Shown: positions 347 through 32,787 of the stretch, in pieces
How positions within the stretch are numbered: the stretch's first letter is position 1
Layout: the number at the start of each line of letters is the position of its first letter
Source: a virus
IMG/VR virus record: IMGVR_UViG_3300033183_000245
Coordinates: 1-34,527 of that record
Length of the DNA: 34,527 nt
Direction: 5' to 3' (one strand)
Position numbers and translations under genes: made by a program
Notes under the pieces: model-generated
Databases searched by the model: none
Told to the model about the DNA's origin: nothing
The model's input: only the letters and a program-made list of their open reading frames with translations

Positions 347-370
347 GAGGTACATATTGAGGTACATATT
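347..370. repeat. Tandem 12-bp repeat next to attL, possible integrase arm sites
   Basis: Two perfect head-to-tail copies of GAGGTACATATT occupy 347-358 and 359-370, about 55 bp past the end of tRNA-Ser, in an AT-rich stretch (292-418) with no credible gene. Short direct repeats beside a tRNA attachment core are often arm-type binding sites for a tyrosine integrase or excisionase. The repeat is seen directly; the role is inferred. Confidence 0.5.
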
Positions 371-418
371 TATTTTTGTTGCACCAATGCCATACCGCAA
401 GAGTTTAATTTAGCTGAC

Positions 419-808: not shown

Positions 809-910
809 TTCAGTTCGCCTCATTTTTACGTCTCCTACCAAAATGTATATTGCCACCCCTTGAGACAATCCAAATGCTTTCTGTCTGTTTCAGTAATTTT
901 GGGTGAAAAC

Positions 911-2253: not shown

Positions 2254-2669
2254 CTATGTTTGATAGTTTTGAAAGTCGTGGCGTTTGCCACGCAGAAATT
2301 GATTATGCAAACCGTCTGGATGAATGGCTGACAGATTGGTTGCCACAAAACCTTCCTGTCATTGATGAGTTTCTGAAAATCACAAAGAAACTTCACGATG
2401 ACATGGGTCGTGAGCATTACGGCGCACAAGCAGTCTACGAAGTCATGCGCTTCCATCGTCTGCAGCGCGAAGGTGCTGGTGAGTTTAAGCTGAACAACAA
2501 CAATGTTGCGCTGATCGCACGTTACATCATGGCGAAACACCCACAATACGACGGGTTTTTCAGCCTCCGCACTATTAACGGCATCCCAGAAGTACGCGCC
2601 AAGCACATCTTTGAGGATGCCATGCGTCGCGCAGGTCAGCTTCCAGCTGCTCAAGCGGAGTTGTTCTAA
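2244..2669 (+). CDS. Hypothetical early protein
   Basis: 141 aa from the ATG at 2244; a second in-frame ATG at 2256 is possible. The product is predicted cytosolic and mostly helical, with a run of asparagines (FKLNNNNVALIARYIM) in its middle and an alanine-rich end. Its stop overlaps the next start in TAATG, so it is translationally coupled to the exonuclease gene and may serve the same recombination module. No enzymatic motif is visible and I do not recognise a family. Confidence 0.65.
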   Translation: MGVTMFDSFESRGVCHAEIDYANRLDEWLTDWLPQNLPVIDEFLKITKKLHDDMGREHYGAQAVYEVMRFHRLQREGAGEFKLNNNNVALIARYIMAKHPQYDGFFSLRTINGIPEVRAKHIFEDAMRRAGQLPAAQAELF

Positions 2670-3457
2670 TGCCTGTGCGGATCATACGCGATCAGTCTGG
2701 CGCGGACTACCACGCCGAAATGGCGCACATCAGTTCATCGTACATCAAGGATTGGGGGCTGCGGTCCCCAGCCCATGCGGAACATGGCGAAAAAACCATA
2801 AACCCATACGTGGCTGATGAAGGCACCGCCATACACCTTGTGTTTGAGGGCAGGGATAACCTTGTCATTGAGGCAGGTGAAACGCGCCGCGGTTCTGGCT
2901 GGGAAGAAGCCAAAAAGCGTGCGGCGTCGATTAACGGCGTTGCCCTGCCAAAAAAGGCGTATGCAACGGCGATTGCAGCGGGCCGCAGTGCGCGTAACCA
3001 CCCGACCATCGCTGAGTGGTTCAGTGCCCACGAGGTTTGGCATGAGGCGTCGGTGTACGCAATTCACGCTGCAACTGGGCAGGGCGTTAAAACAAAACCT
3101 GACGTGTACTTGCCCGAAACAGGGGCAATCCTTGATTTGAAATCCGCTGTATCGGCTGATCCACGCGATTTCATACGTGCCTGCTTCAAGTACGGGTACG
3201 ATTTGCAGGCTGCGTTTTACCGCATGGTGTGCCGCGAAGCGGGTCTTCGCGTCAGCCCCAATTTTCACATTTTAGCCGTCGAAAAAACCAAACCGTTTGC
3301 GGCTCAGCATTTCGTGATGGAGAGCGACGTTCTCTCTGCTGCGGAAGAGCGCGTTGAGCAGATCATGCTCGAAATTGCGCATTCACGGGAAACAGGCGTG
3401 TTCAGCACAGGCTGGCCTCCAGTTTCCAAAATTAACCTTAACCCAATGGGAACTTAA
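2669..3457 (+). CDS. PD-(D/E)XK exonuclease (RecE C-terminal / Cas4-like, DUF3799 type)
   Basis: 262 aa, coupled to the previous gene by TAATG. The catalytic region around residues 132-190 contains GVKTKPDVYLP, then AILDLKSAVSADPRDF, then YDLQAAFYR, matching the D...DxK...QxxxY signature of RecE/AddB/Cas4-like nucleases (Asp of KPD, Asp and Lys of DLK, Gln and Tyr of QAAFY). An early AIHLVFEGRD segment corresponds to the conserved helix with His before the core. Phage enzymes of this type chew 5' ends of double-stranded DNA so that a partner can anneal single strands. The SSB-like gene follows after 2 bp, making a two-gene recombination module. No annealase of the RecT type was found beside it. 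Confidence 0.8.
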   Translation: MPVRIIRDQSGADYHAEMAHISSSYIKDWGLRSPAHAEHGEKTINPYVADEGTAIHLVFEGRDNLVIEAGETRRGSGWEEAKKRAASINGVALPKKAYATAIAAGRSARNHPTIAEWFSAHEVWHEASVYAIHAATGQGVKTKPDVYLPETGAILDLKSAVSADPRDFIRACFKYGYDLQAAFYRMVCREAGLRVSPNFHILAVEKTKPFAAQHFVMESDVLSAAEERVEQIMLEIAHSRETGVFSTGWPPVSKINLNPMGT

Positions 3458-3459
3458 TC

Positions 3460-4104
3460 ATGGAATACAGATTGTATAACGTGACTGCGCTACACGCGCG
3501 TCTACACACAGCACACAACTTCAGTGCATCAGATAATCGCTCAATGCCCTGTGCATTTGATGCGCCTGATGCGAAGTATGAGTGCAGTTTTATTATTTCC
3601 GAGGCTCAAGCCAAGGAAACGGCACGTAAGGTTGTTGAAGCCTACAATTCAAAAAAGAAGCACGATTGGCTGGAGTTTAAGCCATCTGGTCTTGATGATT
3701 TGTTTAAGCGCGACACGGATATGAACGGCGTTGAAACAGGCAACTACATCCTAAAAGCCGTTAAAAAAACCTACGGCGAAGAGGGCAATGCCCCAAAGGT
3801 TTGGATGCCAAATAGCAAAGAGGCAACCGATGATTTCCGTGTGACAAACGGATCAGATTGCCACGTCGTCTTGACGCTTGCGCCGTGGAACTACGCGGGC
3901 AAAGCGGGTGTCCAATTCCGTCTAAAGGGCGTGATGGTCACAACGTTGGCTGACGCGCCAGCAATGGGTAACCCGTTTTTGGACGACCCAAACGCCAACG
4001 TGAATGGCTCCATTGATGCGGAGCTAGACAGCCTCATGAATGACATAGCGGGCAAGAAGGCACCCACGCCTGACGCGCCGTTTCAGGACGACGTACCCTT
4101 TTAA
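3460..4104 (+). CDS. Single-stranded DNA-binding protein (DUF2815 / gp2.5-like)
   Basis: 214 aa. The body reads as an OB-fold DNA-binding protein of the DUF2815 class: YECSFIISEAQ near residue 45, an APKVWMPNSKEATDD loop, and a beta-rich CHVVLTLAPWNYAGKAGVQFRLKGVMV segment. The C-terminus ends FQDDVPF, close to the acidic tip (DDDIPF) of bacterial SSB that recruits DNA repair and replication partners. It follows the exonuclease by 2 bp and precedes the primase-helicase, so it should coat ssDNA in both recombination and replication. The conserved tip hints that it can dock host SSB-interacting proteins (inference). Confidence 0.8.
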   Translation: MEYRLYNVTALHARLHTAHNFSASDNRSMPCAFDAPDAKYECSFIISEAQAKETARKVVEAYNSKKKHDWLEFKPSGLDDLFKRDTDMNGVETGNYILKAVKKTYGEEGNAPKVWMPNSKEATDDFRVTNGSDCHVVLTLAPWNYAGKAGVQFRLKGVMVTTLADAPAMGNPFLDDPNANVNGSIDAELDSLMNDIAGKKAPTPDAPFQDDVPF

Positions 4105-7148: not shown

Positions 7149-7703
7149 ATGCTGACAGACGAAAAGCTGAAACGGCTATGCGCACATGATTGGCGCACAA
7201 CGATCAAGGCAGGGACTGATGCGGCAAACGATAAACGCCGCAAAGGGACGCGCATTGATGGCACCCACGTCGCGTGGGAGTTGCTCAAAGACGCGGTATC
7301 CGTGTCACGGGTGGCATACGCCGCACCGCCACGGTCAGGTTACCCAAAGAAGTCTGCACTGCCTGACGGCGTGGATGAGGTCACGGCGTGGCAGCTGGTG
7401 AGCGCGTACTTGAAGGGCGAGATCGAAAACCTGCCATCCGCAGAAACAAAAGCGCCACGCCCCACGGCGCAGCAGATCACGCGGGCAGAGATGATATTGG
7501 AGCTGTGGCACCACGTGGCTTTGATGGAGAAGGGCGACCGTGACCGACTGAAAAAAGCGATATATCTGAAGGCCAGCGGTATGCGTCCAAGGGCCATTAG
7601 GGATCGCTTGGGGCTAAACTACCAGCAGCTTTGGAACGCACAAAAACAGGCGTGTTCAGACATCTGGGAAAAAATTTCGCAGTTATCGCAACTAGGGGGT
7701 TGA
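7149..7703 (+). CDS. DUF6362-like phage protein with C-terminal helix-turn-helix
   Basis: 184 aa, starting 2 bp after the previous stop. The layout of an AAPPRSGYPKKSALP segment, a PTAQQITRAEMILELWHHVALMEKGDRDRLKKAIYLKASG core and a GMRPRAIRDRLGLNYQQLWNAQKQA helix-turn-helix resembles DUF6362 proteins found in phages of alphaproteobacteria, where the end looks like sigma region 4. It is the last rightward early gene before the packaging region, a common place for late-gene regulators. Family assignment is from memory of the pattern and is moderate; the regulatory role is inference. Confidence 0.55.
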   Translation: MLTDEKLKRLCAHDWRTTIKAGTDAANDKRRKGTRIDGTHVAWELLKDAVSVSRVAYAAPPRSGYPKKSALPDGVDEVTAWQLVSAYLKGEIENLPSAETKAPRPTAQQITRAEMILELWHHVALMEKGDRDRLKKAIYLKASGMRPRAIRDRLGLNYQQLWNAQKQACSDIWEKISQLSQLGG

Positions 7704-7844
7704 TAAAACGTGAGACTATCCTGAGATTTTCACTAAGATTGGAAATCCTATGCTCGGATCGATCTTACCTTTCATCTGCTCCATACACGACCTTGACACC
7801 CATTGGGTCGTTTCCCTGTGTGGCGGCTGCTGAACTCCCAGTCG

Positions 7845-8075
7845 TCACACATCTTTTTCAGACGTTTGCTCCACGTCTTGCTTGTTTCTGAAATAAATCA
7901 CGATCTCTGGTTCGCCCCGATGGCCACAGTGCGAACAGCGTGATTTTGCTTTGATTTGTTCAATGTCGTTGATGCCACGATCAATGAACTGCTGCACGGG
8001 TACGTTTTTGTCGTGCCGACATTTCACGCACTGGATGTTCAACCAGTGTTTGTTAATCAGATTTAGTTTCGTCAC
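7845..8075 (-). CDS. Small zinc-ribbon protein (antiparallel cargo)
   Basis: About 76 aa if the GTG at 8075 is used; the start is uncertain because no ATG exists in frame, and a TTG at 8123 or one nearer the first cysteine is possible. The pairs CVKC and, 30 residues later, CSHCGHRGE form a four-cysteine zinc ribbon, followed by EIVIYF and a charged tail. It is encoded opposite to the phage operons and overlaps the 3' end of the gene upstream of it (8053-8418), so the two are probably co-transcribed. Function unknown. The 140 bp between 7704 and 7844 holds no gene that I can support. Confidence 0.5.
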   Translation of the reverse strand: MTKLNLINKHWLNIQCVKCRHDKNVPVQQFIDRGINDIEQIKAKSRCSHCGHRGEPEIVIYFRNKQDVEQTSEKDV

Positions 8076-8418
8076 TGCTAATGAACTTTTTGATTTCCCA
8101 GTAGGACGCAACAGAGAACACAATAGTGAGCAATATTAACATCCAGTTGCCACCCGAGGTAAACACGCCACGGGCGACAATGAAAGTGCCAAGAATAAAC
8201 ATAAATAAACGGAACAATGATGGTGTTCGGGCTTCTTCTTGCAATTGTGCTTTTCTAGCGGCCTTTTCTTCAGGTGTACTTTCGGAAAACAAGGTTTCCA
8301 AAACCGTAGGCTCGTGGTCAGTGGGTGATACTCTCGCCCCACAGTGTGGACAAAGTCTTGCTGAGCGAGCAAGTCGCTCGCGACACTCTGGACAACCCCA
8401 AAATCGCAACCCTGACAT
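8053..8418 (-). CDS. Zinc-ribbon membrane protein (antiparallel cargo)
   Basis: 121 aa from the ATG at 8418, with GAAAGGCAAAAGG upstream; the frame is open farther but into the HNH gene. Residues 9-28 hold CPECRERLARSARLCPHCG, a compact zinc ribbon. After an acidic linker, residues about 72-112 form two membrane segments (LFRLFMFILGTFIVARGVF and WMLILLTIVFSVASYW). This is the zinc-ribbon plus two-helix plan common in small bacterial membrane proteins of unknown function. Its start lies 26 bp from the divergent HNH start. An immunity or superinfection role is possible but not shown. Confidence 0.6.
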   Translation of the reverse strand: MSGLRFWGCPECRERLARSARLCPHCGARVSPTDHEPTVLETLFSESTPEEKAARKAQLQEEARTPSLFRLFMFILGTFIVARGVFTSGGNWMLILLTIVFSVASYWEIKKFISSDETKSD

Positions 8419-8444
8419 GCCTTTTGCCTTTCTGTAGGTGCACC

Positions 8445-8792
8445 TTGAAAACACAGCAACGCAGTCCCGAAGCACATGTATATCGCTCACTGTACAGTTC
8501 AAAGCATTGGGCGACAATACGGCGTCAGGCACTGACACGGGACGAATACAGATGCCAGCACAGCGGCTGTGGTGCGCACCTGCAAGCGGGCAGGGATCAC
8601 CCACGCAGCGCGGTTGTACACCACCTGAAACCGCATAAGGGCGATCTCGAATTGTTCTTCGATTTAAATAATCTGCAATCCGTCTGCTGGACTTGTCACA
8701 GTGGCGACATCCAATCGACTGAGGCACTAGGCTACGACAGCACAATAGGAAGCGATGGTTGGCCTATTGATCCAAGGCACCCAAGCGTCTAG
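8445..8792 (+). CDS. HNH endonuclease of the packaging module
   Basis: 115 aa from a TTG at 8445 (TAGGTG eight bases upstream), chosen because the conserved part begins VYRSLYSSKHWATIRRQAL. Motifs: CQHSGC as first zinc pair, AVVHHLKPHKGD with the catalytic histidines, DLNNLQSVCWTCHSGDIQ with Asn and the second cysteine pair. Such HNH proteins sit immediately upstream of P27-type small terminases in HK97-like phages and are needed with TerL for cos cleavage and packaging. The gene order here agrees, except that a leftward cargo gene separates it from terS. Confidence 0.8.
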   Translation: MKTQQRSPEAHVYRSLYSSKHWATIRRQALTRDEYRCQHSGCGAHLQAGRDHPRSAVVHHLKPHKGDLELFFDLNNLQSVCWTCHSGDIQSTEALGYDSTIGSDGWPIDPRHPSV

Positions 8793-8818
8793 CACAAAAG
8801 AGCGCAGTCGCTTGTGTC

Positions 8819-9199
8819 TTATTGGTCCATGTAAGAAAAATTTGGGACGTATTCCTTTTTCAAGATTTTTTTCAAATCTTTAATGCAACTGTTAAAAACT
8901 TCTTGAGTGAGTTTTATTTCACGAAGGATAAGTTTGGCTTTCGTGTCATCTTGCGCTTTCCTGCGGACAGGGTTTCTTCTCTTTATAAAACCATTGTTTT
9001 CCAAAAGTGTTGTAATTTCGTGTATCGGGCCAGTTTCAAATCGACTATTGAGTTCCCATTGGTTCCAACGTTCTATTTCATAGCAATAAACCACCCTGTG
9101 TATCTGTTGATCAATCTTGTTCAGTTGTGAAACGTCAATAGTTTGGGCGTGGGAGTTACTCGACAGCAACATTACTAACACAAATAAAATCTTCTTCAT
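8819..9199 (-). CDS. Secreted protein of unknown function (antiparallel cargo)
   Basis: 126 aa from the ATG at 9199 (GGAAG before it). MKKILFVLVMLLSSNSHAQ is a clear Sec signal peptide with cleavage after Ala. The mature part is charged, helical, with two cysteines (VVYCYEIERW and NSCIKDL) that could form one periplasmic disulfide. It is inserted between the HNH gene and terS, opposite to them, and is AT-richer by eye than its neighbours. No family recognised. The 137 bp to the right (9200-9336) hold no gene; GGGGGGTGGGTC at 9249-9260 lies where cos is expected in HNH/P27 phages but I cannot confirm it. Confidence 0.65.
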   Translation of the reverse strand: MKKILFVLVMLLSSNSHAQTIDVSQLNKIDQQIHRVVYCYEIERWNQWELNSRFETGPIHEITTLLENNGFIKRRNPVRRKAQDDTKAKLILREIKLTQEVFNSCIKDLKKILKKEYVPNFSYMDQ

Positions 9200-9336
9200 C
9201 ACACTTCCACATATACACGCATGCTATGACGCAAAGCGTAATTTTAAATGGGGGGTGGGTCAAAGACAAAAATCATCAACACGCAAACCAGCGACCCCAT
9301 AAAAAATGTTTTGCTAACTAGGATTTTTCTCACGAC

Positions 9337-9792
9337 ATGCCTCGTAAACGCACAGACAGCAAAGAAAACGCAGCGCAAATTATGGCAAAGTCCGCAGTGC
9401 CAATTACTGTGCCGAGCAATGTCCCGCTAAGCGATACAGACATCCCATTTTATCACAACGTGATTGGTGAGTTTGCGCGAAGCCAGTGGACAGAACATGC
9501 CCTTGAGATCGCAGCCATGATGGCGCGGACGATGCATGATCTAAACGCAGAGCAACAAGCGTTGCGTGAAGAGGGTTACATTGCTGTCCGTGAAAACGGC
9601 ACGACCGTTGAGAACCCGCGCACAAGGATCGTTAAAAGTCTGACGTCTGATCTGCTATCGCTGCGTAGATCATTGGGCGTCAACGCGCGGGCGCGCGAAG
9701 AGGCTCACGTTGCTAGTAAGAAAACACTAATTGCCAAAGCCATTGAGGCTGACAACCCGCTGGATGATGGCCTGATAGCAAGGCCGCAGTAA
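9337..9792 (+). CDS. terS: Terminase small subunit, P27 family
   Basis: 151 aa. N-terminus PRKRTDSKENAAQIMAKSAVPITVPSNVPLSDTDIPFYHNVIGEFARSQWTEHALEIAAMMAR shows the P27 pattern of a basic start and a helical segment after a proline-rich stretch; then a helical core with LNAEQQALREEGY and PRTRIVKSLTSDLLSLRRSLGVNARA, which matches the usual P27 ending (R-x-L-G-L/V). Small terminases recognise the phage packaging site and deliver it to TerL. The gene is 356 bp ahead of terL because of one inserted antiparallel gene. Confidence 0.8.
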   Translation: MPRKRTDSKENAAQIMAKSAVPITVPSNVPLSDTDIPFYHNVIGEFARSQWTEHALEIAAMMARTMHDLNAEQQALREEGYIAVRENGTTVENPRTRIVKSLTSDLLSLRRSLGVNARAREEAHVASKKTLIAKAIEADNPLDDGLIARPQ

Positions 9793-9793
9793 G

Positions 9794-10108
9794 TTAATCA
9801 CCACCAAATTCAAACCGAGCATCTAATTCGCAGGTGAATGTAAAAGATTTTGGAGAAAATTTGTCTCTGTAAGGCAGCACCTCAGACTTCGTCCATTCAT
9901 CAACTATTTTGAAGTCGTCTACTTCTTGAGCCGTCCATACAGCAGTTTGCTTACATGGATCACTTACGTCTGTGGCGATCTCGACGGTAAATTTATCTTT
10001 TAACTCAGCATCAAACTCTGACCATTTTTGCTTTAGGATCATAACAAACATTTGGCAATCCTGCGCATCTTTAAAGGTATTCATGATAGTTCGTCTGATC
10101 TCTGGCAT
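9794..10108 (-). CDS. Small two-cysteine-pattern cargo protein between terS and terL
   Basis: 104 aa from the ATG at 10108, which has GAGGAA seven bases before it. Longer versions from 10144 are open and would add a short hydrophobic start (MVAFFQTV) like that of two related genes at 16844 and 17134. The signature FKDAQDC early and FTFTC near the end matches the F-[SK]-x2-[EQ]-[EDH]-C and [FY]-x-C pattern of those proteins; an extra cysteine sits in the middle (DPCKQ). It fills the terS-terL gap almost exactly: 1 bp from terS, 40 bp from the terL start. No known family. Confidence 0.6.
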   Translation of the reverse strand: MPEIRRTIMNTFKDAQDCQMFVMILKQKWSEFDAELKDKFTVEIATDVSDPCKQTAVWTAQEVDDFKIVDEWTKSEVLPYRDKFSPKSFTFTCELDARFEFGGD

Positions 10109-10148
10109 GTAGGTGTTCCTCACTGTTTGAAAGAAAGCTACCATAAAA

Positions 10149-11666
10149 ATGACGACACGCGGAGAAAAGGTTTGCCAGTTCATTGAACGCTACTGCCTGA
10201 TCCCAGAAGGTAGCAAAGTTGGCCAGCCGATAAAGCTGTTGGACTTCCAGCGTAAGTTTGTTTTGGATGTCTACGATAATCCAGCGGGGACGTCGCGTGC
10301 TTATCTCTCGGTGGCCCGCAAGAATGGCAAATCTGCTCTTATCGCCGCAATCGTATTGGCGCACTTAGTTGGGCCAGAAGCAAAGCAGAATAGCCAGATC
10401 ATCAGTGGTGCGCGATCACGCGATCAGGCCGCGTTGGTTTTCAAACTTGCTGAAAAGATGGTCAGACTATCGGATGAGCTAACAAAAATTGTGCGTATCG
10501 TGCCAAGCCAAAAGTCATTGGTCGGTTTGCCCTGTAATGTTGAGTACCGAGCGATCTCTGCTGAAGCGGGGACCGCGCATGGCTTATCCCCTACCTTAGC
10601 CGTGCTTGATGAAGTCGGGCAGGTTCGTGGTCCTCACGATCCGTTCGTGGAGGCTATTGAGACGGCGCAAGGTGCGCATCATCAGCCCCTGTTGATTGCC
10701 ATCAGCACCCAAGCCGCCACGGACGGTGACTTGTTTTCGCTGTGGTTGGATGACGCCGCGAACTCTGCTGATCCACGTATCGTGTCACATCTCTACACCG
10801 CACCGAAGGATTGCGAACTGTCAGACCGCAAAGCGTGGGCTGCGGCTAACCCTGCAATGGCGCAGTTTCGATCACAAACTGATATTGAAGACTTTGCTGC
10901 ACAAGCCGAACGGCTCCCAGCAAAGGCAAACTCATTTCGCTGGCTCTACTTGAACCAGCGCATAGAGGCGCAATCGCCATTCCTATCTCGGGCAGAGTGG
11001 GAGGCAAACAACGCGTCTCCCAACGTCGAGCACGGAGATTATTGCTTCGCAGGATTGGACTTGTCAGCTAGCCGTGACCTTACGGCTCTCGTCTTAGTTT
11101 TTCCCAAAGCGGACAAGTTTCACATACAGCCTCATTTTTTCCTCCCTTCAGACGGGCTGCGTGATAAATCCCAAGCGGAGAAAACTCCCTTTGACCTCTG
11201 GGCCGACGAAGGATTTCTGCACACAATAGAGGGGCCAGTCATTCAGCCTGCTATTGTGGCGCAGACTGTAGCGGAAATTGCGGAAACATATGATCTGCAG
11301 TTGCTGGCGTATGACCGCTGGCGGATCAATGACTTCCAGCGCGAGTTGGATAACATTGGTGCGCAGATACCTATGAAAGCCTTTGGGCAGGGGTTTAGAG
11401 ATATGTCGCCCGCTGTCGATAAACTGGAACGCCTAGTTGCAGAGCGCAAGTTATGCCATGGCGGTCACCCGATTATGAACATGTGCGCGGCTGGTGCTGT
11501 TGTGCAATCTGACCCCGCAGGGAACAGGAAGCTGCACAAAGCTAAAAGCTATTCAAAAATCGACGGACTGGTTGCGCTAGCGATGGCATTGGGATGCATG
11601 AGTGCGGACGACTTAATACAACCGACGTCGCCTTGGGATGACCCAAACTTTAAGTTGGCGGTTTAA
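10149..11666 (+). CDS. terL: Terminase large subunit (YmfN / HK97 type)
   Basis: 505 aa. The ATPase half has an adenine-binding LLDFQRKFV motif, Walker A SVARKNGKS, Walker B LAVLDEVGQ and the coupling motif AISTQA. The nuclease half shows FAGLDLSASRDLTALV with its catalytic Asp, a second acidic site in AYDRWRINDFQREL, and the closing KIDGLVALAMALG. TerL pumps phage DNA into the prohead and cuts it at unit length. GAAAG lies about 15 bases before the ATG. Its stop overlaps the stop of the convergent cargo gene by 3-4 bp. Confidence 0.92.
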   Translation: MTTRGEKVCQFIERYCLIPEGSKVGQPIKLLDFQRKFVLDVYDNPAGTSRAYLSVARKNGKSALIAAIVLAHLVGPEAKQNSQIISGARSRDQAALVFKLAEKMVRLSDELTKIVRIVPSQKSLVGLPCNVEYRAISAEAGTAHGLSPTLAVLDEVGQVRGPHDPFVEAIETAQGAHHQPLLIAISTQAATDGDLFSLWLDDAANSADPRIVSHLYTAPKDCELSDRKAWAAANPAMAQFRSQTDIEDFAAQAERLPAKANSFRWLYLNQRIEAQSPFLSRAEWEANNASPNVEHGDYCFAGLDLSASRDLTALVLVFPKADKFHIQPHFFLPSDGLRDKSQAEKTPFDLWADEGFLHTIEGPVIQPAIVAQTVAEIAETYDLQLLAYDRWRINDFQRELDNIGAQIPMKAFGQGFRDMSPAVDKLERLVAERKLCHGGHPIMNMCAAGAVVQSDPAGNRKLHKAKSYSKIDGLVALAMALGCMSADDLIQPTSPWDDPNFKLAV

Positions 11667-12136
11667 TTTAAGTCTGCTTCCAGTTTAAAACCTGCGTTTT
11701 TTAAGAAGCCGATAAAGTCCCGCATATTCTCGTGACCCTGTATACTTTTGACCGCAAAATATCCTGAACTCATCGAAAAGGCTTCGTAATATTTGCATGG
11801 ATCGGTATTAGGAATTACGTTGCTAATTTCGTCTAAATGCTTCTCGTAGCCTGCCCCTAGAGTTATTTTGACCATGTTATTTGGTAAAACTTCAGCGATC
11901 AAATCTGGCCAATACTTAGATTTTTCGTCCGTTGACATGCTTTTCATTAGGAAAAGTTGATTGTCTTTTTCACAGAAGTCTAGGTTAGACACATACGCTT
12001 TATCACCAACCAAAAGGTCGCCGATTAAGTAGCCATATGTAACTCTTCTTACCTCATCACGCGTTACGTTTACGTCAAACGCTTGAAGCTGAGTTGACCA
12101 AAATATCGCACTAACGAAAAACAAAATCGAACGCAT
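11663..12136 (-). CDS. Secreted protein of unknown function (antiparallel cargo)
   Basis: 157 aa from the ATG at 12136, with GGAG seven bases upstream. MRSILFFVSAIFWSTQLQA is a Sec signal peptide ending at an Ala-x-Ala-like site. The mature domain (about 138 aa) is mixed alpha/beta, with two cysteines (LDFCEKD and DPCKYYEA), and ends in a conserved-looking block, MRDFIGFLKNAGFKLEADL. It overlaps the terL stop and ends 30 bp short of the divergent portal start, so it has been fitted into a minimal gap. A periplasmic role in the lysogen is likely; function is not recognised. Confidence 0.65.
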   Translation of the reverse strand: MRSILFFVSAIFWSTQLQAFDVNVTRDEVRRVTYGYLIGDLLVGDKAYVSNLDFCEKDNQLFLMKSMSTDEKSKYWPDLIAEVLPNNMVKITLGAGYEKHLDEISNVIPNTDPCKYYEAFSMSSGYFAVKSIQGHENMRDFIGFLKNAGFKLEADLN

Positions 12137-12166
12137 ATAAAATCTCCATAATGAGGCAACGCTACT

Positions 12167-13360
12167 ATGGGCATGTTTGACAGATTTATAAAGACCGAAC
12201 AACGATCACTTGAAAACCCGACTGTGCCTGTTTCTGCGGACAACTTCCTGCACTTGATGGGCTGGGGTGACTTTCATTCCACCTCTGGTGTGACGGTCAA
12301 TATCGACACTGCTCTTGGCGTTCCTGCTGTTTGGGCTGCAGTCAACTTTATCTCAGGCACGTTGGCCAGCCTGCCGCTTGAAGTATATCGCGCAAACGAG
12401 CGTGTGACGGATGGAATTGGCGCGTGGCTCAACCGTGCGATCAATCCAACGACATCTTCGTTTCAATGGCGCAAGTACAGCTACGAGCAAACCCTAACAG
12501 GTGGACGCTCAGTCACGCTAATCCTGCGCAACGGGCGCGGTGATGTGACGGACTTGGTGCCGCTTGACCCTGCTGATCTGCATGTTCAAGAAGTCATGAC
12601 ATCGGAGTTTCCGACGAAAACTTACCGCAGTAAGAGCCGCGTTTACCAAGCCTCAGAGGTCATCGACCTGACCTTTATGCAGAAGCACAATCAGATCGAC
12701 ATACGTGGTCCGATTATGGCGAACAAAGACATCATTGGTTTGGCCATTGCGTCAGCCCGCTATGGCTCTAAAGCGTTCCAGTCTGGTGGTATCCCGCCAG
12801 CGGTACTGCAGGGTCCATTCCAAAGCGGTGCAGCGGCACAGCGGGCGTCTGAGGACGTCGCAGCCACAACTGCCAAGCTAGCGCGGGAAGGGCGACCAGT
12901 TATGGCTCTGCCTGCAGGTCACGAACTTCGATCTGTTGGGTTCTCCCCAGAGCAAATGCAGCTGTTGGAATTGCAGCAATTCTGCATTGAACAAATCGCG
13001 CGTATCTATTCATTACCGCCAGTCTTTATCCAAGATTTAAGTGATGGAACTTATTCCAACGTGGAGCAACAGGATTTGCATTTCGTAAAACACACGCTGC
13101 GTCGTTGGATTGAGCAGACAGAGCAGGAGATGAACCTTAAACTGTTTGGCCGTGAAAGTGATACGGAAGTCCGCTTTAACGTGGATAGCTTGCTTCGTGG
13201 TGATTTGAAAACCCGTATGGAAGCACACGCGACTGCAATTCAGAACGGCATTAAGACGCCAAACGAAGTGCGTGAAAAAGAAGGCTTAGAGCCATTACCC
13301 GCTGGCGATGATCTGATGATCCAAGGTGCGACTGTGCCGATTGAAAGCCAAGATACGTAA
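12167..13360 (+). CDS. Portal protein, HK97 family
   Basis: 397 aa. Characteristic motifs: TALGVPAVWAAVNFISGTLASLPLEVYR near residue 45, WRKYSYEQTLTGGRSVTLILRNGRG, DIIGLAIASARYG, and FCIEQIARIYSLPPVFIQDLSDGTYSNVEQQ, which are those of HK97 gp3-type portals. It forms the dodecameric DNA gate at the capsid vertex. The C-terminus ends PIESQDT, but a 59-bp copy of the preceding DNA at 14590 continues in frame as GEGEAVVVS to a TAG at 14679. The present end is therefore a replacement made when the next gene was inserted. Confidence 0.9.
   Translation: MGMFDRFIKTEQRSLENPTVPVSADNFLHLMGWGDFHSTSGVTVNIDTALGVPAVWAAVNFISGTLASLPLEVYRANERVTDGIGAWLNRAINPTTSSFQWRKYSYEQTLTGGRSVTLILRNGRGDVTDLVPLDPADLHVQEVMTSEFPTKTYRSKSRVYQASEVIDLTFMQKHNQIDIRGPIMANKDIIGLAIASARYGSKAFQSGGIPPAVLQGPFQSGAAAQRASEDVAATTAKLAREGRPVMALPAGHELRSVGFSPEQMQLLELQQFCIEQIARIYSLPPVFIQDLSDGTYSNVEQQDLHFVKHTLRRWIEQTEQEMNLKLFGRESDTEVRFNVDSLLRGDLKTRMEAHATAIQNGIKTPNEVREKEGLEPLPAGDDLMIQGATVPIESQDT
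13292..13350. repeat. 59-bp portal-end duplication, left copy
   Basis: Identical to 14590-14648 except at two positions, both synonymous in the portal frame (TTA/CTA for Leu and AGC/AGT for Ser). It encodes PLPAGDDLMIQGATVPIES. The pair brackets the 13412-14587 gene. Confidence 0.95.
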
Positions 13361-13363
13361 CTC

Positions 13364-13395
13364 TTGCAATAAGTCTCTCATGTCTCATAATGAGA
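13364..13395 (+). promoter_or_regulatory. Promoter of the inserted cargo gene with overlapping palindrome
   Basis: TTGCAA (13364-13369), 16 bases, then CATAAT (13386-13391) give a credible sigma-70-type promoter 20 bp ahead of the cargo start codon. The perfect palindrome TCTCAT-A-ATGAGA (13383-13395) covers the -10 element, a good place for a repressor. An own promoter is the hallmark of a phage moron. The reading is by eye. Confidence 0.5.
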
Positions 13396-13411
13396 TAGGG
13401 AGATTTTGGTC

Positions 13412-14587
13412 ATGCTGCGTTTCTTTTTTATTTTAATTAGCGTTTTAATTACTGCGTTTGGCAGTTCAAGTTTAGCTAAGGGCGTCTCTTGCCTGCCAGA
13501 TGGTTATCCTCATGTAAAAATAAGTCCGGGTTGGGATTGTAATAAAGCGTCAACTGCGACTGAAAAAGCCATATGTGAAAAACAAGGTCCACCACATTAC
13601 CCTGCGGTGAAAGATTTTTTGGTTGGGCAGATATATAAACAACTTAAAAACGCTGGACAATTGACACCTGTGCTAATGGAGCAATTTCGCATCAACAAAG
13701 ACAATCGCGATTATTGCGGTGACAATGTTAGTTGTATCTCCAAAGCGCGTGGTGCTCAGCTTAAATCTTTACTGAATTTAGATCAGATTACTGAAGACGA
13801 GTATGAAGCATGGTATTGCGAATTTATTGAAACCAATAATTTGATGCCAAGTGCAGATGAAATAGCTGCATTCAAAGCAAAAAGTGATGCCGATTTTGCT
13901 AAAAAGGTTGCTGAAGAAGAGGCGCGTAAAGCCAAGCAAGCAAAAGAATACGAACAAAGAATGGCGAAATTGGCTGAGCAAAAAGCCAAAGAAGAGGCAG
14001 AACAAAAAGTCTTAAAACAGAAATGGGATACTAAGCGCAGCGAGTTGTTAGCGAACAGTATAGGCTACAGAAATATTCTGCTGTACATGACTAAAATGGA
14101 AATTCGTGACGAAGCAAAATGCTTTTTAAAGCCCCAAGTCAATGCTGTGTGCTACGGCTTGGATAACATAAAGTTTGGCGGTATTTTTGATGAAATTCCC
14201 GACTTTAAAAGTTTGGATCGCGTCTTAGTCAGTCTGGAACTCGATTTAGGACCACTTGATACCTATTCTTGGGTGTCTGCGCTTTCGAATTGGAGCAACG
14301 CCGATCCTGAAGATCGAAATATTTATCAGAATATGCGATCTATTTTGGATAAAAAATACAAACTAGATTTTGAATTTAGTGAAAGAGATATAACTTTTTT
14401 TGATGACGGTGAAAAAAACACATTGCGAGTGTCTTATAATAGAGGGCAAGTGACGCTAGAGTTGCGCAAGAAAAAGATCGATTACTCAACCGACATCAGA
14501 CTGTTTTTAAACTACCAAACACCAGAATTAGGTGCGAAATATATGCAGCGGTACGAACCTAAAAAAGCAAAAGCGAGCGACTTTTAA
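13412..14587 (+). CDS. Secreted LprI-like N-terminal domain plus coiled coil, inserted cargo
   Basis: 391 aa from the ATG at 13412 (AGGGAG upstream); a TTG six bases earlier is unlikely. Residues 1-23 are a signal peptide (MLRFFFILISVLITAFGSSSLAK). Residues about 35-125 carry WDCNKASTATEKAICE and later GDNVSCISKARGAQLKSLL, the cysteine pattern of LprI/DUF1311 lysozyme-inhibitor-like proteins. Residues about 145-210 are a Lys/Glu/Ala coiled coil. The C-terminal 180 residues are an unrecognised domain with two more cysteines. It is rightward like the late genes, AT-rich by eye, has its own promoter, and sits between two copies of the portal end. A periplasmic envelope-protection role is plausible but inferred. 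Confidence 0.7.
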   Translation: MLRFFFILISVLITAFGSSSLAKGVSCLPDGYPHVKISPGWDCNKASTATEKAICEKQGPPHYPAVKDFLVGQIYKQLKNAGQLTPVLMEQFRINKDNRDYCGDNVSCISKARGAQLKSLLNLDQITEDEYEAWYCEFIETNNLMPSADEIAAFKAKSDADFAKKVAEEEARKAKQAKEYEQRMAKLAEQKAKEEAEQKVLKQKWDTKRSELLANSIGYRNILLYMTKMEIRDEAKCFLKPQVNAVCYGLDNIKFGGIFDEIPDFKSLDRVLVSLELDLGPLDTYSWVSALSNWSNADPEDRNIYQNMRSILDKKYKLDFEFSERDITFFDDGEKNTLRVSYNRGQVTLELRKKKIDYSTDIRLFLNYQTPELGAKYMQRYEPKKAKASDF

Positions 14588-14589
14588 AA

Positions 14590-14648
14590 CCACTACCCGC
14601 TGGCGATGATCTGATGATCCAAGGTGCGACTGTGCCGATTGAAAGTCA
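14590..14648. repeat. 59-bp portal-end duplication, right copy
   Basis: Second copy of 13292-13350. It lies 2 bp after the cargo stop codon and keeps the original downstream codons of the portal gene. Confidence 0.95.
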
Positions 14649-14679
14649 GGGTGAGGGTGAAGCGGTAGTAGTTTCGTAG
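14590..14679 (+). pseudogene. Orphaned original 3' end of the portal gene
   Basis: In frame it reads PLPAGDDLMIQGATVPIESQ followed by GEGEAVVVS and a TAG at 14677-14679. It has no start codon or ribosome site and is cut off from the portal gene by the cargo gene. It is the likely ancestral portal C-terminus. Confidence 0.85.
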
Positions 14680-14890
14680 CCAACAAAAAACAGGGAGCCT
14701 CACCCTCGTACAATGCTAGGGAGCAATTGTGTTAAGTTGTACGGCTTCAAACGAAAAATGGATCAGTGTGCCGATGCGTGAGCTGACACGGTGGAGTGAT
14801 CAACCCACGCAAAGGCAAATATAGGACGGCTTTCGCCGCACCATACAAGTCTCAACGACTTAAATTTCAAAACATTTAGAGGAACATAAT
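14680..14890 (+). other. Gene-free stretch rich in inverted repeats before the protease gene
   Basis: No credible ORF. AGGGTGAGG near 14647 can pair with CCTCACCCT at 14698-14706. GTACAA (14708-14713) pairs with TTGTAC (14737-14742), competing with the hairpin CAATGCT/AGCAATTG (14711-14729). GATCA/TGATC brackets 14761 to about 14790, and CGGC-TTTC-GCCG is a small hairpin near 14827-14838. It may be the leader of the protease-capsid mRNA or a small RNA; I cannot assign a class. The end (AGAGGAAC) is the ribosome site of the protease gene. Confidence 0.4.
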
Positions 14891-15475
14891 ATGGACAACC
14901 GAGAAAGTCGGCAGTCTGCATCTTTTGAGGTGCGGGCTATTGATGATGCGACGGTCGCCGTCGAAGGTTATGCGGCTGTCTTTAATCAGGAAACAGTCAT
15001 AGGCGGACAGTGGCGAGAGCAGATTGCACAGGGTGCTTTCCGCAATGCTATTGGTCGTGATGATGTTGTATTTCTTGTAAACCATGATGGGTTGCCCTTG
15101 GCGCGTAGTCGTAGCGGAACCCTTGAGTTGTCGGAAGACGATCATGGCTTGCACATTCGTGCGTTGCTTGATCCCACCGATCCAGATGTCCGAGCCATCG
15201 TCCCAAAAATGAAACGGGGCGACTTGGATAAGATGAGTTTTGCGTTCGTGCCGACCCGCCAATCTTGGGATGATGAGGATGATATGCCTCGTCGTACTAT
15301 AGAGGAAGCGGAGCTACACGACGTATCTATCGTTACGACCCCAGCGTACAGCGGCACCGAGATCGGGCTGCGCAGCTTGGAGCGGCATCGCAAAGCACAG
15401 AAGAAGAGCCAAGCAGCCCGCAGAATGCGGATGAAGGCTCGCCAATCCCTAAATCGCAAAGGAGAAGTCTCATGA
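14891..15475 (+). CDS. Prohead maturation protease, HK97 gp4 family (S78)
   Basis: 194 aa. VAVEGYAAVFNQETVIGG is the typical start of the fold; VVFLVNHDGLPLARS contains the catalytic His; LDKMSFAFVPTRQSW contains the catalytic Ser; ELHDVSIVTTPAYSGTEIGLRS completes the core. The basic tail (KAQKKSQAARRMRMKARQ) is common. It cleaves the N-terminal delta domain of the capsid protein during prohead maturation. AGAGGAAC precedes the ATG. It overlaps the capsid start as ATGA. Confidence 0.92.
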   Translation: MDNRESRQSASFEVRAIDDATVAVEGYAAVFNQETVIGGQWREQIAQGAFRNAIGRDDVVFLVNHDGLPLARSRSGTLELSEDDHGLHIRALLDPTDPDVRAIVPKMKRGDLDKMSFAFVPTRQSWDDEDDMPRRTIEEAELHDVSIVTTPAYSGTEIGLRSLERHRKAQKKSQAARRMRMKARQSLNRKGEVS

Positions 15476-16713
15476 CAGAGATGAAAACAATGCGTGAAGA
15501 GATGGCTGCTATTGCCACCGAAGCACGCGCTAAACTTGCCGAAGTTACAGATGAAACACCTGAAGATCGTGCAGCAGAGATTGAACGTGAATTTGACGCC
15601 ATGATGGCGGATCACGACAAGCTAGCTGCACGTGTCGAGCGTGAAGATCGCGTTGCTCAGGCGTTCAAAAAGCTAGAAGCAACCGACACCGCACAAATCC
15701 CAGAAGCCGAAGGTCGCACAGCACCTGCAGTCGACAACGGTTTGACCATGGATTACCGCGCAGCATTCGCTGAAATGATTGCAAATGGTGGTGATGCGTA
15801 TGTTGAGCCAGAGGTTCGCAACGTTTTAAAAGAATATCGCGTTCAAGTGGGTTCTACTAACTCTGCTGGCGGCTATACCGTCCCAACTGAGCTAGCGACG
15901 TTCATTGTCGAAAGCATGAAAGCGTTTGGGCCAATGTATACAAGCCCATTGTTTACAAGCATCGAAACAGCAGCGGGCAACCCGTTCAACATTCCAACGC
16001 TTGACGACACCAGTGTAACTGCTGAAGCGCATACTGAGGGTACTCAGCCAACCGACGACGGCGGCAAAGACGCGACCTTTGGTCAGAAAACACTAAGCAG
16101 CTTTGCATTCGACACTGAATGGGTTCGCTGGTCAGCGGAATTGAACGCAGACAGTGTCTTCAACATGGAAAGCCTACTAGGCCGCTTGCTTGGTGAACGT
16201 ATGGGCCGCATCGCAAACGCGAAGCTAACCACAGGTTCTGGTTCATCTGATGTCGAAGGTATCGTCACAAACTCAGCGGCTGGCGTAACTGCTGCCTCTG
16301 CAACTGCCGTGACTGCCGATGAAATCATCGACTTGGTGCATTCCGTTGATCCTGCTTATCGCCAATCACCAAATGCTGCGATCATGATGAACGACAGCAC
16401 ACTAAAGGCGATCCGTAAGTTGAAGGATGGCAATGGCAACTACTTATGGCAAATGGGCGACTTCCAAATTGGAACGCCGCAAAACATTCTGGGCTATCCA
16501 GTTGTTGTGAACCAAGACATGGACAGCATTGCGACTGGCAAGAAAACAATCTTGTTTGGTGACATGTCTCGCTTTTATGTTCGCAAGGTTGGCCAGCCGA
16601 GCATTTACGTTGCACGTGAACGCTTCGCGCCTGACTTTGGTATTCTTGGCTACATTCGGTTGGATGGCTGCTTGTCCGATACAGCGGCTGTGAAGCACCT
16701 AGTACAGGCGTAA
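15472..16713 (+). CDS. Major capsid protein, HK97 fold
   Basis: 413 aa. Residues 1 to about 110 are a charged helical delta domain (EMAAIATEARAKLAEVTDETPEDRAAEIEREF) acting as built-in scaffold and normally removed by the protease encoded just upstream. The rest has the HK97 pattern: YRVQVGSTNSAGGYTVPTELATFIVESM, a FGQKTLSSFAFDTEWVRWSAELNADS segment, and PNAAIMMNDSTLKAIRKLKDGNGNYLW with the final FGDMSRFYVRKVG. It assembles the icosahedral shell. Coupled to the protease by ATGA and followed by a strong hairpin. Confidence 0.93.
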   Translation: MTEMKTMREEMAAIATEARAKLAEVTDETPEDRAAEIEREFDAMMADHDKLAARVEREDRVAQAFKKLEATDTAQIPEAEGRTAPAVDNGLTMDYRAAFAEMIANGGDAYVEPEVRNVLKEYRVQVGSTNSAGGYTVPTELATFIVESMKAFGPMYTSPLFTSIETAAGNPFNIPTLDDTSVTAEAHTEGTQPTDDGGKDATFGQKTLSSFAFDTEWVRWSAELNADSVFNMESLLGRLLGERMGRIANAKLTTGSGSSDVEGIVTNSAAGVTAASATAVTADEIIDLVHSVDPAYRQSPNAAIMMNDSTLKAIRKLKDGNGNYLWQMGDFQIGTPQNILGYPVVVNQDMDSIATGKKTILFGDMSRFYVRKVGQPSIYVARERFAPDFGILGYIRLDGCLSDTAAVKHLVQA

Positions 16714-16719
16714 TAAAAA

Positions 16720-16755
16720 TGGGTGCTGCGCTTCTAGACATTAGTGCAGCACCCA
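16720..16755 (+). terminator. Strong hairpin after the capsid gene, no T-run
   Basis: TGGGTGCTGC (16720-16729) pairs perfectly with GCAGCACCCA (16746-16755), 6 bp after the capsid stop. No T-run follows, so it may stabilise the capsid mRNA 3' end or weaken transcription into the two leftward genes rather than terminate fully. Confidence 0.5.
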
Positions 16756-16843
16756 CTGGGTTACATAGTCAGGGACGACTACCGTCTAAGTTTGTCGAAA
16801 ATGTTATTTTCAGTCAACGTTAGCTTAGGGGGTAACATTGCAG

Positions 16844-17065
16844 TTAATGATCAAAAGCAGCCGTGCAGATGTAATTCGGGCCAGTTGTGTTGTCTTCATC
16901 TAAATAAACTTCTCCAAAAAGCACTGTAGCGTATTTCTGCGATTTAAGGAGTTTAGCACCTGTAATACACTCCTCTATCGTAGAGAAGCGTCCAACTTGT
17001 TCATAGTGTATTTCTTCGCCCTCAAGATTGCTAAAATATGCAAGCAGAATGAAAATTATGTCCAT
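16844..17065 (-). CDS. Small two-cysteine-pattern protein, probably membrane-anchored or exported
   Basis: 73 aa with an excellent ribosome site (AAGGAGAT) before the ATG at 17065. The N-terminus MDIIFILLAYFSN is short and hydrophobic. FSTIEEC (Cys33) and YIC (Cys67) fit the shared F-[SK]-x2-[EQ]-[EDH]-C ... [FY]-x-C pattern also found at 9794-10108 and 17134-17415. The two cysteines could form a disulfide if it reaches the periplasm. It lies in an antiparallel pair between the capsid gene and the head-tail genes. No known family. Confidence 0.6.
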   Translation of the reverse strand: MDIIFILLAYFSNLEGEEIHYEQVGRFSTIEECITGAKLLKSQKYATVLFGEVYLDEDNTTGPNYICTAAFDH

Positions 17066-17133
17066 TTTGTATCTCCTTGATTAAACTCGTACTTAGCTAC
17101 GTTTCACTTCATAAAGCTAATGCTTAGGAGTTT

Positions 17134-17415
17134 TTAGCGTGAAACAACACGACCAGTGCAAAAAAATGTCAAATGGTCGCCTTCTTCGCTAGTTTGTCGA
17201 ATTGCAAATTTCCCTTGTCGTTCGATAAGTTCGCTACGCCATCCGACCTCTTGCGCCAAAAACCAGACACCGCTTTTTTGCCGCTCTAACAAAGTCTGCT
17301 CGCAATGCTGCTCTGATTTAAAAACATTAACTTCATCATTTGGTTGATAAATTCTTGCGGCGACCACGTCACCGTTAAAGGCTTCAACCATTAGTAAAAC
17401 AAATTCAACGACCAT
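17134..17415 (-). CDS. Small two-cysteine-pattern protein, relative of its neighbour
   Basis: 93 aa, AGAGAG before the ATG at 17415. It starts MVVEFVLLMVEAFNG, then FKSEQHC (Cys38) and FFC (Cys86). The layout equals that of the 16844-17065 protein with a longer middle, so the two are likely diverged copies. It ends 42 bp before the rightward head gene. The region 17066-17133 between the pair holds the downstream gene's ribosome site and nothing else that I can support. Confidence 0.6.
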   Translation of the reverse strand: MVVEFVLLMVEAFNGDVVAARIYQPNDEVNVFKSEQHCEQTLLERQKSGVWFLAQEVGWRSELIERQGKFAIRQTSEEGDHLTFFCTGRVVSR

Positions 17416-17457
17416 AAAAACTCTCTAGCACCTTGGTATTATAAACAGGAGCCTAAC

Positions 17458-17649
17458 ATGAAACTTAAATTACTCCAGTCTATGGCTGGCATCGATTTTA
17501 GTCACAACGTAGGTGACGTGATTGAAGTCAACGATGCGGAAGCTGTAAAGCGTTATGTCGAACGTGGCATCGCGGAAATCGTGAAGACTACGAAAAAAGA
17601 AACTGCGGCCAAGAAAACAGCTGCAAAAGAGACAGCCACGAAAGACTAA
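17458..17649 (+). CDS. Small head protein following the capsid gene
   Basis: 63 aa, AGGAG before the ATG. KLLQSMAGIDFSHNVGDVIEVNDAEAVKRYVERGIAEIV is a compact conserved domain found in small proteins between the capsid and connector genes of HK97-like phages, with the pattern SMAG-x-D-[FY]-S and D-x-x-E-A. The tail from residue 44 is Lys/Ala/Thr repeats (KKETAAKKTAAKET), likely disordered and basic. A role in head completion is presumed from position only. Confidence 0.65.
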   Translation: MKLKLLQSMAGIDFSHNVGDVIEVNDAEAVKRYVERGIAEIVKTTKKETAAKKTAAKETATKD

Positions 17650-17652
17650 TCA

Positions 17653-18255
17653 ATGCCGACCTTGTCGCTACAGCACCGTGTTGAGCGCGTGACCGCACCT
17701 ACGTCTGAGCCTGTTTCAGTCGCAGATGCCAAGCGTCACCTGCGCGTGGAACATTCAGATGATGATCTGCTGATCAAACGATTGATCGAAACAGCAGTGG
17801 CTTATGTCGATGTTCGTGGTGCGTTAGGGAAGGCGATGATCACACAGACGTGGGCCGAATGGTTTGCGCCCAATCCGTCTGACGTTGTGCTGTCGCTTGG
17901 CCCAGTTCAGTCCGTAAGTAGCATTAGTTACTACGATACGGACAATGCCTTGCAGACAGCGACGTTAGATAACTACTACGTTCTAGGGCCGTCGACGCGT
18001 ACAGTAATTAAGCCCAAGACTGGTTACAGCTGGCCAATAACATTTACACGTGATGATGCGATTAAGGTTCAATACGTTATTGGCTACGGTGATACGTTTC
18101 GCGATGTACCCAGTACAGTGCGTCACGCGATCATGATGCTTGTTTCTCACTATTACGAAAACCGTGAAAACGAATTGATCGGCACAATTAGCAAAACCAT
18201 ACCATTCGGGTTTGAAGCGTTGATCGATAGCGAACGGGCGTCGTTCTATGGCTAG
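17653..18255 (+). CDS. Head-tail connector protein (phiE125 gp8 / HK97 gp6-like)
   Basis: 200 aa. VSVADAKRHLRVEHSDDDLLIKRLIETAVAYVDVRGALGKAMITQTWAEWF is the helical core of the gp6-like DNA-packaging/connector family (phiE125 gp8 type), and the second half (SSISYYDTDNALQTA, YVIGYGDTFRDVPSTVRHAIMMLVSHYYENRE) matches the long form of that family. It forms the ring under the portal that retains DNA and receives the tail. It overlaps the next gene by 8 bp. Confidence 0.85.
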   Translation: MPTLSLQHRVERVTAPTSEPVSVADAKRHLRVEHSDDDLLIKRLIETAVAYVDVRGALGKAMITQTWAEWFAPNPSDVVLSLGPVQSVSSISYYDTDNALQTATLDNYYVLGPSTRTVIKPKTGYSWPITFTRDDAIKVQYVIGYGDTFRDVPSTVRHAIMMLVSHYYENRENELIGTISKTIPFGFEALIDSERASFYG

Positions 18256-18586
18256 GGCAGGCTTGTTCCGCGAACGCGTTACGTTTCAGCGGATGGCATC
18301 AACGACTGATGATTACGGCAACGTCACTGCTGCGTCGTGGTCAAACATTGTAAGCCGCAACGCTGAGCTGACCGAGCGTACAGGGTTTCAGAATGACGAA
18401 CAGGGTGCGCTGCAAGATGTGGCTATTGCCCGAATGAAAGTACGCTCCGACACGCAAATTAAAGCTGTTACCATAGCGGATCGCGTATCTGCGCGTAATA
18501 CGCTCTGGGCCATCAAATCAATTTCAACCGCAACACCAAAAGGCGATATTCTTGAGTTTGTCCTTGAAAAGGGCGTTGCAACATGA
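18248..18586 (+). CDS. Head closure / head-tail joining protein (SPP1 gp16 type)
   Basis: 112 aa. The short beta-barrel pattern GLFRERVTFQRMASTTDDYGNVTAASW, followed by VAIARMKVRSD and ISARNTLWAIKSIS-like strands, is that of the head-tail joining family. It sits between connector and gp10-like genes as expected and forms the stopper ring. It ends in an ATGA overlap with the next gene. Confidence 0.82.
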   Translation: MARAGLFRERVTFQRMASTTDDYGNVTAASWSNIVSRNAELTERTGFQNDEQGALQDVAIARMKVRSDTQIKAVTIADRVSARNTLWAIKSISTATPKGDILEFVLEKGVAT

Positions 18587-32779: not shown

Positions 32780-32787
32780 AGGCGCAC

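Follow-up and report, generated by a model that had tools for sequence, protein, structure and literature searches.

Why should the head operon of a bacterial virus carry small genes that point the other way at nearly every junction, and how did they come to be there? The question is raised by a marine bacterial virus known from IMG/VR virus record IMGVR_UViG_3300033183_000245, whose 34,527 bases, analyzed here in full, are called the window. Its HK97-type packaging and head module (7149 to 18586) runs in the order regulator, HNH endonuclease, small terminase subunit (terS), large terminase subunit (terL), portal, protease, major capsid protein, and connectors. The genes terS, terL, portal, protease, and capsid lie in this sequence and resemble those of known phages, with terL being 53 to 57% identical to the genes of Rhizobium phage 16-3 and HK022-like phages; the names protease and capsid are ones that we presume from gene order and general knowledge. 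Between the regulator and the first connector gene (con1), six of the seven junctions are loaded, holding seven leftward genes (a to e, g, and h) and a rightward gene, f, and the only tight junction is protease/capsid (-4 nucleotides [nt]). We propose that the block is probably a packaging and head operon in which gene junctions serve as slots for morons, with cargo entering by insertion at gene tails and perhaps being expressed in the lysogen.

A sequence-only reading of the window had described six or more leftward genes in the HNH-to-connector gaps, AT-richer and fitted closely to rightward starts, together with a rightward secreted gene, and each of these points holds. The leftward genes number seven. 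GC content averages 0.408 over the eight cargo genes, and ten core genes average 0.516 (p = 1.8e-4, Mann-Whitney test). Start-to-start spacers in the divergent pairs measure 30 nt (e/portal), 40 nt (d/terL), 42 nt (h/con1), and 44 nt (b/HNH), with c/terS longer at 137 nt. The b/HNH value presumes an HNH start at 8463; because b overlaps the only common in-frame HNH start seen (GTG at 8325), either b or HNH is mis-started. Sequences resembling ribosome sites, judged by eye, precede the leftward member of the divergent pairs and usually the core member too. At the opposite ends, d finishes 1 nt past terS, and the stop of e overlaps that of terL by 4 nt. The rightward gene, f (13412 to 14587, + strand), encodes a 391-amino-acid protein with a signal peptide and has a coding score of 32. 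Beyond con1, the loci compared carry no cargo at con1/con2 (0 of 35) or con2/hta (0 of 34), and the list of open reading frames (ORFs) for the tail half of the window, as read, gives a single leftward candidate (32979 to 33224). Cargo is thus concentrated in the packaging and head half.

Lambdoid phages provide cases of morons. In one account, morons are single genes of deviant composition found between adjacent genes of related phages (PMC4378225). The head-operon cargo are morons, in a dense antiparallel variant: their composition departs from that of their neighbors, as given above, and they are inserted between genes that are adjacent in relatives, the same junctions being tight in other lineages.

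The relatives were collected through a terL scan of viral contigs (80 loci), a second scan with a related terL (80 loci, many on the same contigs), and genome contigs (16 terL loci, of which 14 were dropped as distant or partial and two, L082 and L083, were kept); after removal of same-contig repeats and distant loci, 101 loci were compared. They were placed in lineages W, M, and O by the identity of the best terL segment to the window, a rule that misplaces some loci (L100 is 96% identical to L030 yet falls in O). The terL/portal gap measures 2 to 122 nt in 49 of 78 loci and 233 to 2044 nt in 29. Many more distant relatives have terL/portal gaps of about 8 to 40 nt, and the lineages in which terS overlaps terL by 4 to 7 nt and portal follows terL by about 8 nt have no cargo in those junctions. 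Where terL is 98% identical, the gap content is nevertheless unrelated (500 nt in the window, 474 nt in L002, and 1143 nt in L003). With gaps longer than 3000 nt set aside, here as in the shuffle test and tail search below, the longest terL/portal ORF is leftward in all 16 distinct alleles of W and M and rightward in all four alleles of other lineages. Coding-scored families in W and M number 27 leftward and 3 rightward (counted without families scoring below 5.3 or shorter than 60 amino acids). The cargo is thus foreign, swappable, and mainly leftward, which agrees with the earlier suggestion of a lineage that collects such genes. One of the three rightward families is a gene that we take to be ParB-like, carried rightward in terS/terL by other lineages. 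That cluster (C0, about 400 amino acids, 23 members) occurs in terS/terL of L021, L022, L023, L029, and others, and in other lineages it is often paired in this junction with a small membrane gene, C10. Nor is the cargo core: only some members of the lineage carry d, and among the 101 loci b, e, f, g, and h are confined to the window. Gene a is an exception, found in most of the W-lineage loci that extend to its slot.

Evidence for how cargo enters comes from the gene tails beside it. A 65-nt stretch from the 3' end of portal (13286 to 13350, + strand) is repeated beyond f, 1298 nt away and 94% identical. The copy past f (14584 to 14679, + strand) runs on to the native portal stop, as in L002 (96 nt, 94.8% identical, E 2e-37), whereas the portal gene of the window itself ends differently. 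Since the copies flank f and the native end is displaced, f was inserted into the tail of portal. We searched 186 gaps of 100 to 3000 nt against 483 full-length core genes. In 18 gaps, there is a sense-oriented, truncated copy of the 3' tail of the gene immediately upstream, which stops no more than 12 nt from the end of that gene. Reversed gaps gave no tail matches, no other core gene matched in the gaps apart from the terS leader, and no genuine 5' tails appeared at the same threshold. Judged by breakpoints, there are about nine distinct tails at HNH, terS, terL, and portal, namely, four of terL (an L003 type of 66 nt, an L003/L014 type of 120 nt, and those of L013 and L082), two of terS (L030 and L109), two of HNH (L013 and L026), and the portal tail of the window. 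A single gap of L003 holds two terL tails, which lie between successive cargo genes. At the left edge of the tail in L082, L030, and L109 is the ribosome site that serves the leftward gene before it, about 18 to 22 nt from the ATG of that gene. We read the tail copies as probable footprints of cargo capture.

Several candidate footprints were set aside. Putative terS 5' scars, which make up all the downstream-gene matches in HNH/terS gaps (11 at the 5' end and 3 internal), align with the initial ~77 nt of a terS model drawn too long; this stretch, a conserved noncoding leader, contains a stop in L022, and the scars were rejected. Twelve junctions were checked for a fragment from the 5' end of the gene that follows, and a convincing one was found in L003 (portal; score 70 versus a shuffle maximum of 29). 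Pieces in L080 (42 versus 28) and L016 (28 versus 24) also exceeded their shuffles, but the former aligns ahead of terL and not with the start of the gene, and the latter matches an AT-rich stretch inside portal; both were discounted. Also, L030 has tandem HNH genes (7319 to 8024), the second 97% identical to that of L065 and not counted as a tail, and L082 has a second, 3'-truncated HNH copy.

Cargo has also been caught in different slots. The d family, known from 12 IMG/VR loci, occupies terS/terL in the window, L003 to L010, L019, and L132/L133, and regulator/HNH in L016 (96% amino acid identity). In L003 to L009, the neighboring terS is of a different type (28% by window query), and the d-to-stop distance is unchanged. 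Moreover, the small membrane protein C6 is 100% identical in L003 and L019, whose terL genes are about 77% identical at the DNA level in an ungapped comparison; in L019, C6 adjoins the genuine terL, and in L003 its neighbor is a scar of the terL tail.

According to the reading that we prefer, each slot takes at least one small gene, nearly always opposing the late operon, often packed stop to stop with the upstream core gene and starting beside the ribosome site of the downstream one; core genes retain their own start signals, leaving late translation undisturbed. Slot content is swapped rapidly among close relatives, and we presume that this happens through recombination within the conserved core genes on either side. 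New cargo would enter at a core-gene tail, producing the order visible in the sequence itself, an intact or re-ended core gene, the cargo, and a leftover 3' tail. The likely agent would be phage recombination, for which the window encodes exonuclease VIII-like and annealing-protein-like products (2669 to 4104, + strand; phrog_412, E 5.7e-44, and phrog_112, E 3.3e-15), with a template switch or an illegitimate second end. The leftward genes would probably form short transcription units that are used when late genes are not expressed, for example in lysogens, and their products would probably aid the host or the prophage.

A more specific version, which we offer tentatively, is that morons enter by directional "tail capture" into the 3' end of a core gene, duplicating its last 35 to 120 nt. 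The foreign unit would consist of a ribosome site plus an ORF, and successive captures would stack beside the core gene like a dated array. If true, this would be a general mechanism of moron acquisition that can be read from footprints, and it would explain both why cargo ends near core stops and why its orientation is uniform. Integrative elements that restore the 3' end of a gene push the old end aside, and the re-ended gene, insert, and displaced tail seen here resemble such elements by analogy, not by homology. Unlike those elements, the inserts here are single genes without a recombinase (none was found in Pfam searches of the cargo), and the tail lengths vary, leaving no constant crossover of the kind expected for a site-specific cassette.

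It is also conceivable, if less than probable, that ordinary mosaicism produced the pattern, with random nonhomologous recombination, breakpoints surviving at gene ends, and tails as mere leftovers. The range of tail lengths, 35 to 120 nt, fits this idea, as does the 5' portal piece at one junction of L003. Moreover, six of the ten tails tested are closer to another genome's gene than to their own, while four match their own best (one being a tie among clones); the tails may therefore stem from duplication within a genome or from exchange with a relative. What speaks against mosaicism is that all the retained tails derive from the gene directly upstream and stop no more than 12 nt from its 3' end, genuine 5' counterparts being absent at the same threshold, and that the copies in L030 and L082 are closest to the genes of their own genomes.

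The proposal of moron slots presupposes that the leftward ORFs are genes. Genes a and d evolve as leftward proteins under purifying selection: in the leftward frame, their ratio of nonsynonymous to synonymous substitution rates (dN/dS) is 0.01 to 0.12 (0.08 to 0.12 for a and 0.01 to 0.09 for d, where measurable). Gene d differs from its L016 homolog by 3, 0, and 35 changes at the three codon positions (dN/dS 0.02), and a differs from that of L013 by 10, 3, and 26 (dN/dS 0.08). These patterns already refute, for a and d, the view that the leftward ORFs are mostly chance antisense frames in noncoding spacers with few real genes among them, a view that we consider quite improbable overall. When gaps were shuffled, 0 of 200 trials produced an ORF equal in length to that of e, of c, or of the d-type alleles, and leftward ORFs span 95 to 102% of their gap, equaled in 0 of 200 shuffles, for window e and in L011, L026, L109, L012, L082, and L132; Pfam families above cut-off also occur among the leftward cargo. 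In favor of chance, b, e, f, g, and h have homologs in 0 of the other 100 loci, their support being length, composition, or motif only; many small clusters are 100% identical clones; and several gap ORFs do not exceed shuffle lengths, including those in the capsid/con1 gap of the window, where length alone gives p = 0.09. A composition-corrected codon score is passed by f, h, and, in L019, d, with g (5.9) and e (5.4) marginal against 5.3, the 95th percentile of antisense ORFs within core genes. The cargo counts leave out leftward ORFs in portal/protease gaps of distant lineages (clusters C3 and C5), which are probable antisense shadows.

A hairpin followed by TTTTT on the leftward strand, resembling an intrinsic terminator, lies between g and capsid (16718 to 16757, - strand; z -4.4). 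A T-tract of at least five T residues on that strand follows the capsid-side hairpin in all five W-lineage loci that show the region (z -3.6 to -6.8), and by eye none was seen in the other loci inspected. Terminator-like hairpins occur only at the capsid/con1 slot, where the element suggests leftward transcription and would halt transcripts of g and h before they reach capsid. The same element counts against another explanation, namely, that leftward transcripts form an antisense RNA chain silencing head genes in lysogens, with the small proteins secondary. Leftward starts 30 to 44 nt from core starts, which would place promoters inside core coding sequence and make transcripts abut or overlap late mRNA, and the near-uniform orientation speak for such a chain. 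Proteins a and d are conserved, however, relatives without leftward genes manage without the chain, and its g/h transcripts would end ahead of capsid; we therefore regard it as improbable. Least likely of all is that the cargo are late-expressed virion or morphogenesis accessories rather than lysogeny genes. The W-lineage relatives examined do carry them within the head module, but they face leftward, differ entirely from one close relative to the next, and are missing from most relatives whose capsid and portal genes are the same.

Beside the tails that best match another genome, several observations weigh against the moron-slot reading and its lysogen expression. Tail scars are absent from 168 of the 186 gaps, many of them loaded. 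A coding score above 10 is reached by 14 of 196 leftward gap ORFs versus 43 of 109 rightward ones, a deficit due in part to other lineages, whose gaps are occupied by rightward phage genes. A sigma-70 scan returned 5 promoter-like sites against 13.2 expected by chance, and divergent spacers of 30 to 44 nt leave little room for promoters outside core coding sequence. A stricter automated hairpin scan scored the T-tract in two of five W loci and in 0 of 46 others; it scored low because the stem was allowed into the T residues. Finally, no integrase match was found in the window or in six of seven related records, an integrase domain being present in one of the eight records searched (G003). Lysogeny is accordingly inferred mainly from relatives, two of which come from Paracoccaceae bacterium AH-224-B08: L082 and L088, the latter a remnant of terL on a contig of 119,860 bases.

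The cargo proteins themselves are diverse. Gene a (7845 to 8075, - strand) encodes a 76-amino-acid, zinc-ribbon-like protein with homologs at 66 to 92% amino acid identity and weak zinc-ribbon Pfam matches, and the overlapping b (8053 to 8418, - strand; 121 amino acids) combines a zinc ribbon (E 2.8e-5 to 2e-4, under curated cut-offs) with transmembrane segments. Gene c (8819 to 9199, - strand) specifies a 126-amino-acid signal-peptide protein with a leftward homolog, 38% identical, in L031, where it sits in the terS/terL slot instead. The strongly constrained d (9794 to 10108, - strand; 104 amino acids) has no match among 50,697 phage records. Gene e (11663 to 12136, - strand), encoding a 157-amino-acid signal-peptide protein, fills 95% of the terL/portal gap and has no relative in the viral-contig scan or in 198 host-family genomes. 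The viral-contig scan likewise yielded no relatives of f; its N-terminal domain has weak matches in 2 of the 198 genomes (the family of G001) and in two Sinorhizobium plasmids, and an LprI-like identity was rejected after a Pfam search gave no such match. Genes g (16844 to 17065, - strand; 73 amino acids) and h (17134 to 17415, - strand; 93 amino acids, coding score 10) encode small Cys-pair proteins, and small proteins resembling g at 20 to 23% identity occupy the same slot in L002, L011, and L023, h being another. Predicted structures of d and g are of low confidence (predicted local distance difference test scores of 44.5 and 56.0), below use for a fold search; that of d has a low-confidence beta-alpha-beta-beta start.

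Across the lineage, leftward cargo above Pfam cut-offs comprises DUF1330, alpha/beta hydrolase, DUF1272, and GFA, which are bacterial-type families; DUF3764 narrowly exceeds its cut-off, and DUF6974 and SCO4226-like matches fall under theirs. Many of these proteins (DUF1330, DUF3764, DUF6974, and SCO4226-like) we group, on an assumed fold, as ferredoxin-like alpha-beta barrels. The candidates for this fold lie in L005 (4613 to 4903 and 4933 to 5286), L065 (3503 to 3841), L082 (9548 to 9856), L030 (8976 to 9590 and 11578 to 11922), and L026 (8551 to 8904). The sequence-only description of the cargo as envelope-directed fits part of it: heuristics give a signal peptide in 4 and a transmembrane stretch in 7 of the 27 leftward families, and inspection by eye shows a signal peptide in c, e, and f of the window. 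Many of the rest, such as d, DUF1330, DUF1272, and GFA, look cytosolic. In L003, a leftward secreted cargo gene (2521 to 2966) is apparently frameshifted, which suggests decay of older cargo.

The core genes are as follows. A regulator-like gene (7149 to 7703, + strand; weak phrog_6836 match), kept in relatives, bounds the first slot on the left. The HNH gene (8484 to 8792, + strand) matches PF01844 (E 5.5e-5) and phrog_144 (E 7e-18), its start being ambiguous. Upstream of terS lies a conserved leader of the GGGTGGGTCAAAGAC type (9255 to 9299, assigned to no strand) that is cos-like by position only. Next come terS (9337 to 9792, + strand; PF05119 and phrog_5601, E 4.8e-37), terL (10149 to 11666, + strand), which matches 1776 phage records, and portal (12167 to 13360, + strand), whose native 3' end, by comparison with relatives, was displaced by f. 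The protease (14891 to 15475, + strand) and major capsid protein (15472 to 16713, + strand) are kept in relatives, their functions being presumed as above, and the connector genes con1, con2, and hta (17458 to 18586, + strand) form tight junctions without cargo, as evidenced by locus comparison.

Other features of these genomes were seen alongside. At the left end (window 202 to 868 and L005 42 to 939), a tRNA gene lies ahead of a leftward cargo gene and the shared phage left arm, tRNA-Ser in the window and tRNA-Leu in L005; these different tRNAs may mark different integration sites. The leftward cargo at window 419 to 868 is lipoprotein-like. Four apparently independent large deletions relative to window 12573 to 32983 (L008/L009, L015/L017, L019, and L013) drop most structural genes and rejoin near window 32777 to 32983, keeping terL, all or part of portal, and cargo. 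These loci, from several metagenomes, are possibly defective or satellite-like derivatives; the deletions were dropped as evidence of selection for cargo, since terL and portal are retained too. Finally, L083 has a closely related terL in a metagenome-assembled genome labelled Euryarchaeota (NP73), where a binning error is likelier than an archaeal host.

Known systems share some of these properties. Compared with morons as described, a single head module here has cargo in six of its seven junctions, the cargo is almost all antiparallel, units stack in one junction, upstream-gene tails persist, and no recognizable promoter was found. STMMW_20121 of ST64B is an accessory gene antisense to prophage lytic genes that is transcribed independently in lysogens from its own promoter (PMC7067206). 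The antisense placement is alike, but STMMW_20121 is one gene in one phage with RNA evidence, whereas the array here is lineage-wide and known from its sequence alone. In the Mu-like phages of Pseudomonas, fixed slots separate conserved genes and hold short ORFs of variable content, some of which coincide with dips in GC; the authors saw no sequence flanking these plasticity regions that would hint at a recombinase target (PMC4378225). Variable small ORFs in fixed slots are the likeness; recurring upstream-gene tails are the difference. Morons as a kind are known; as far as our searches go, what is new is a single head module so densely loaded with antiparallel cargo, together with the footprints left by gene tails, no printed description of either having been found in a literature coverage that was partial.

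How morons are acquired is called "mysterious" in that account (PMC4378225). About nine footprints at four core genes, together with cargo caught in different slots, make the question directly testable in this lineage. The slots also supply small, mostly orphan proteins that are candidate lysogen traits of marine, Paracoccaceae-associated phages.

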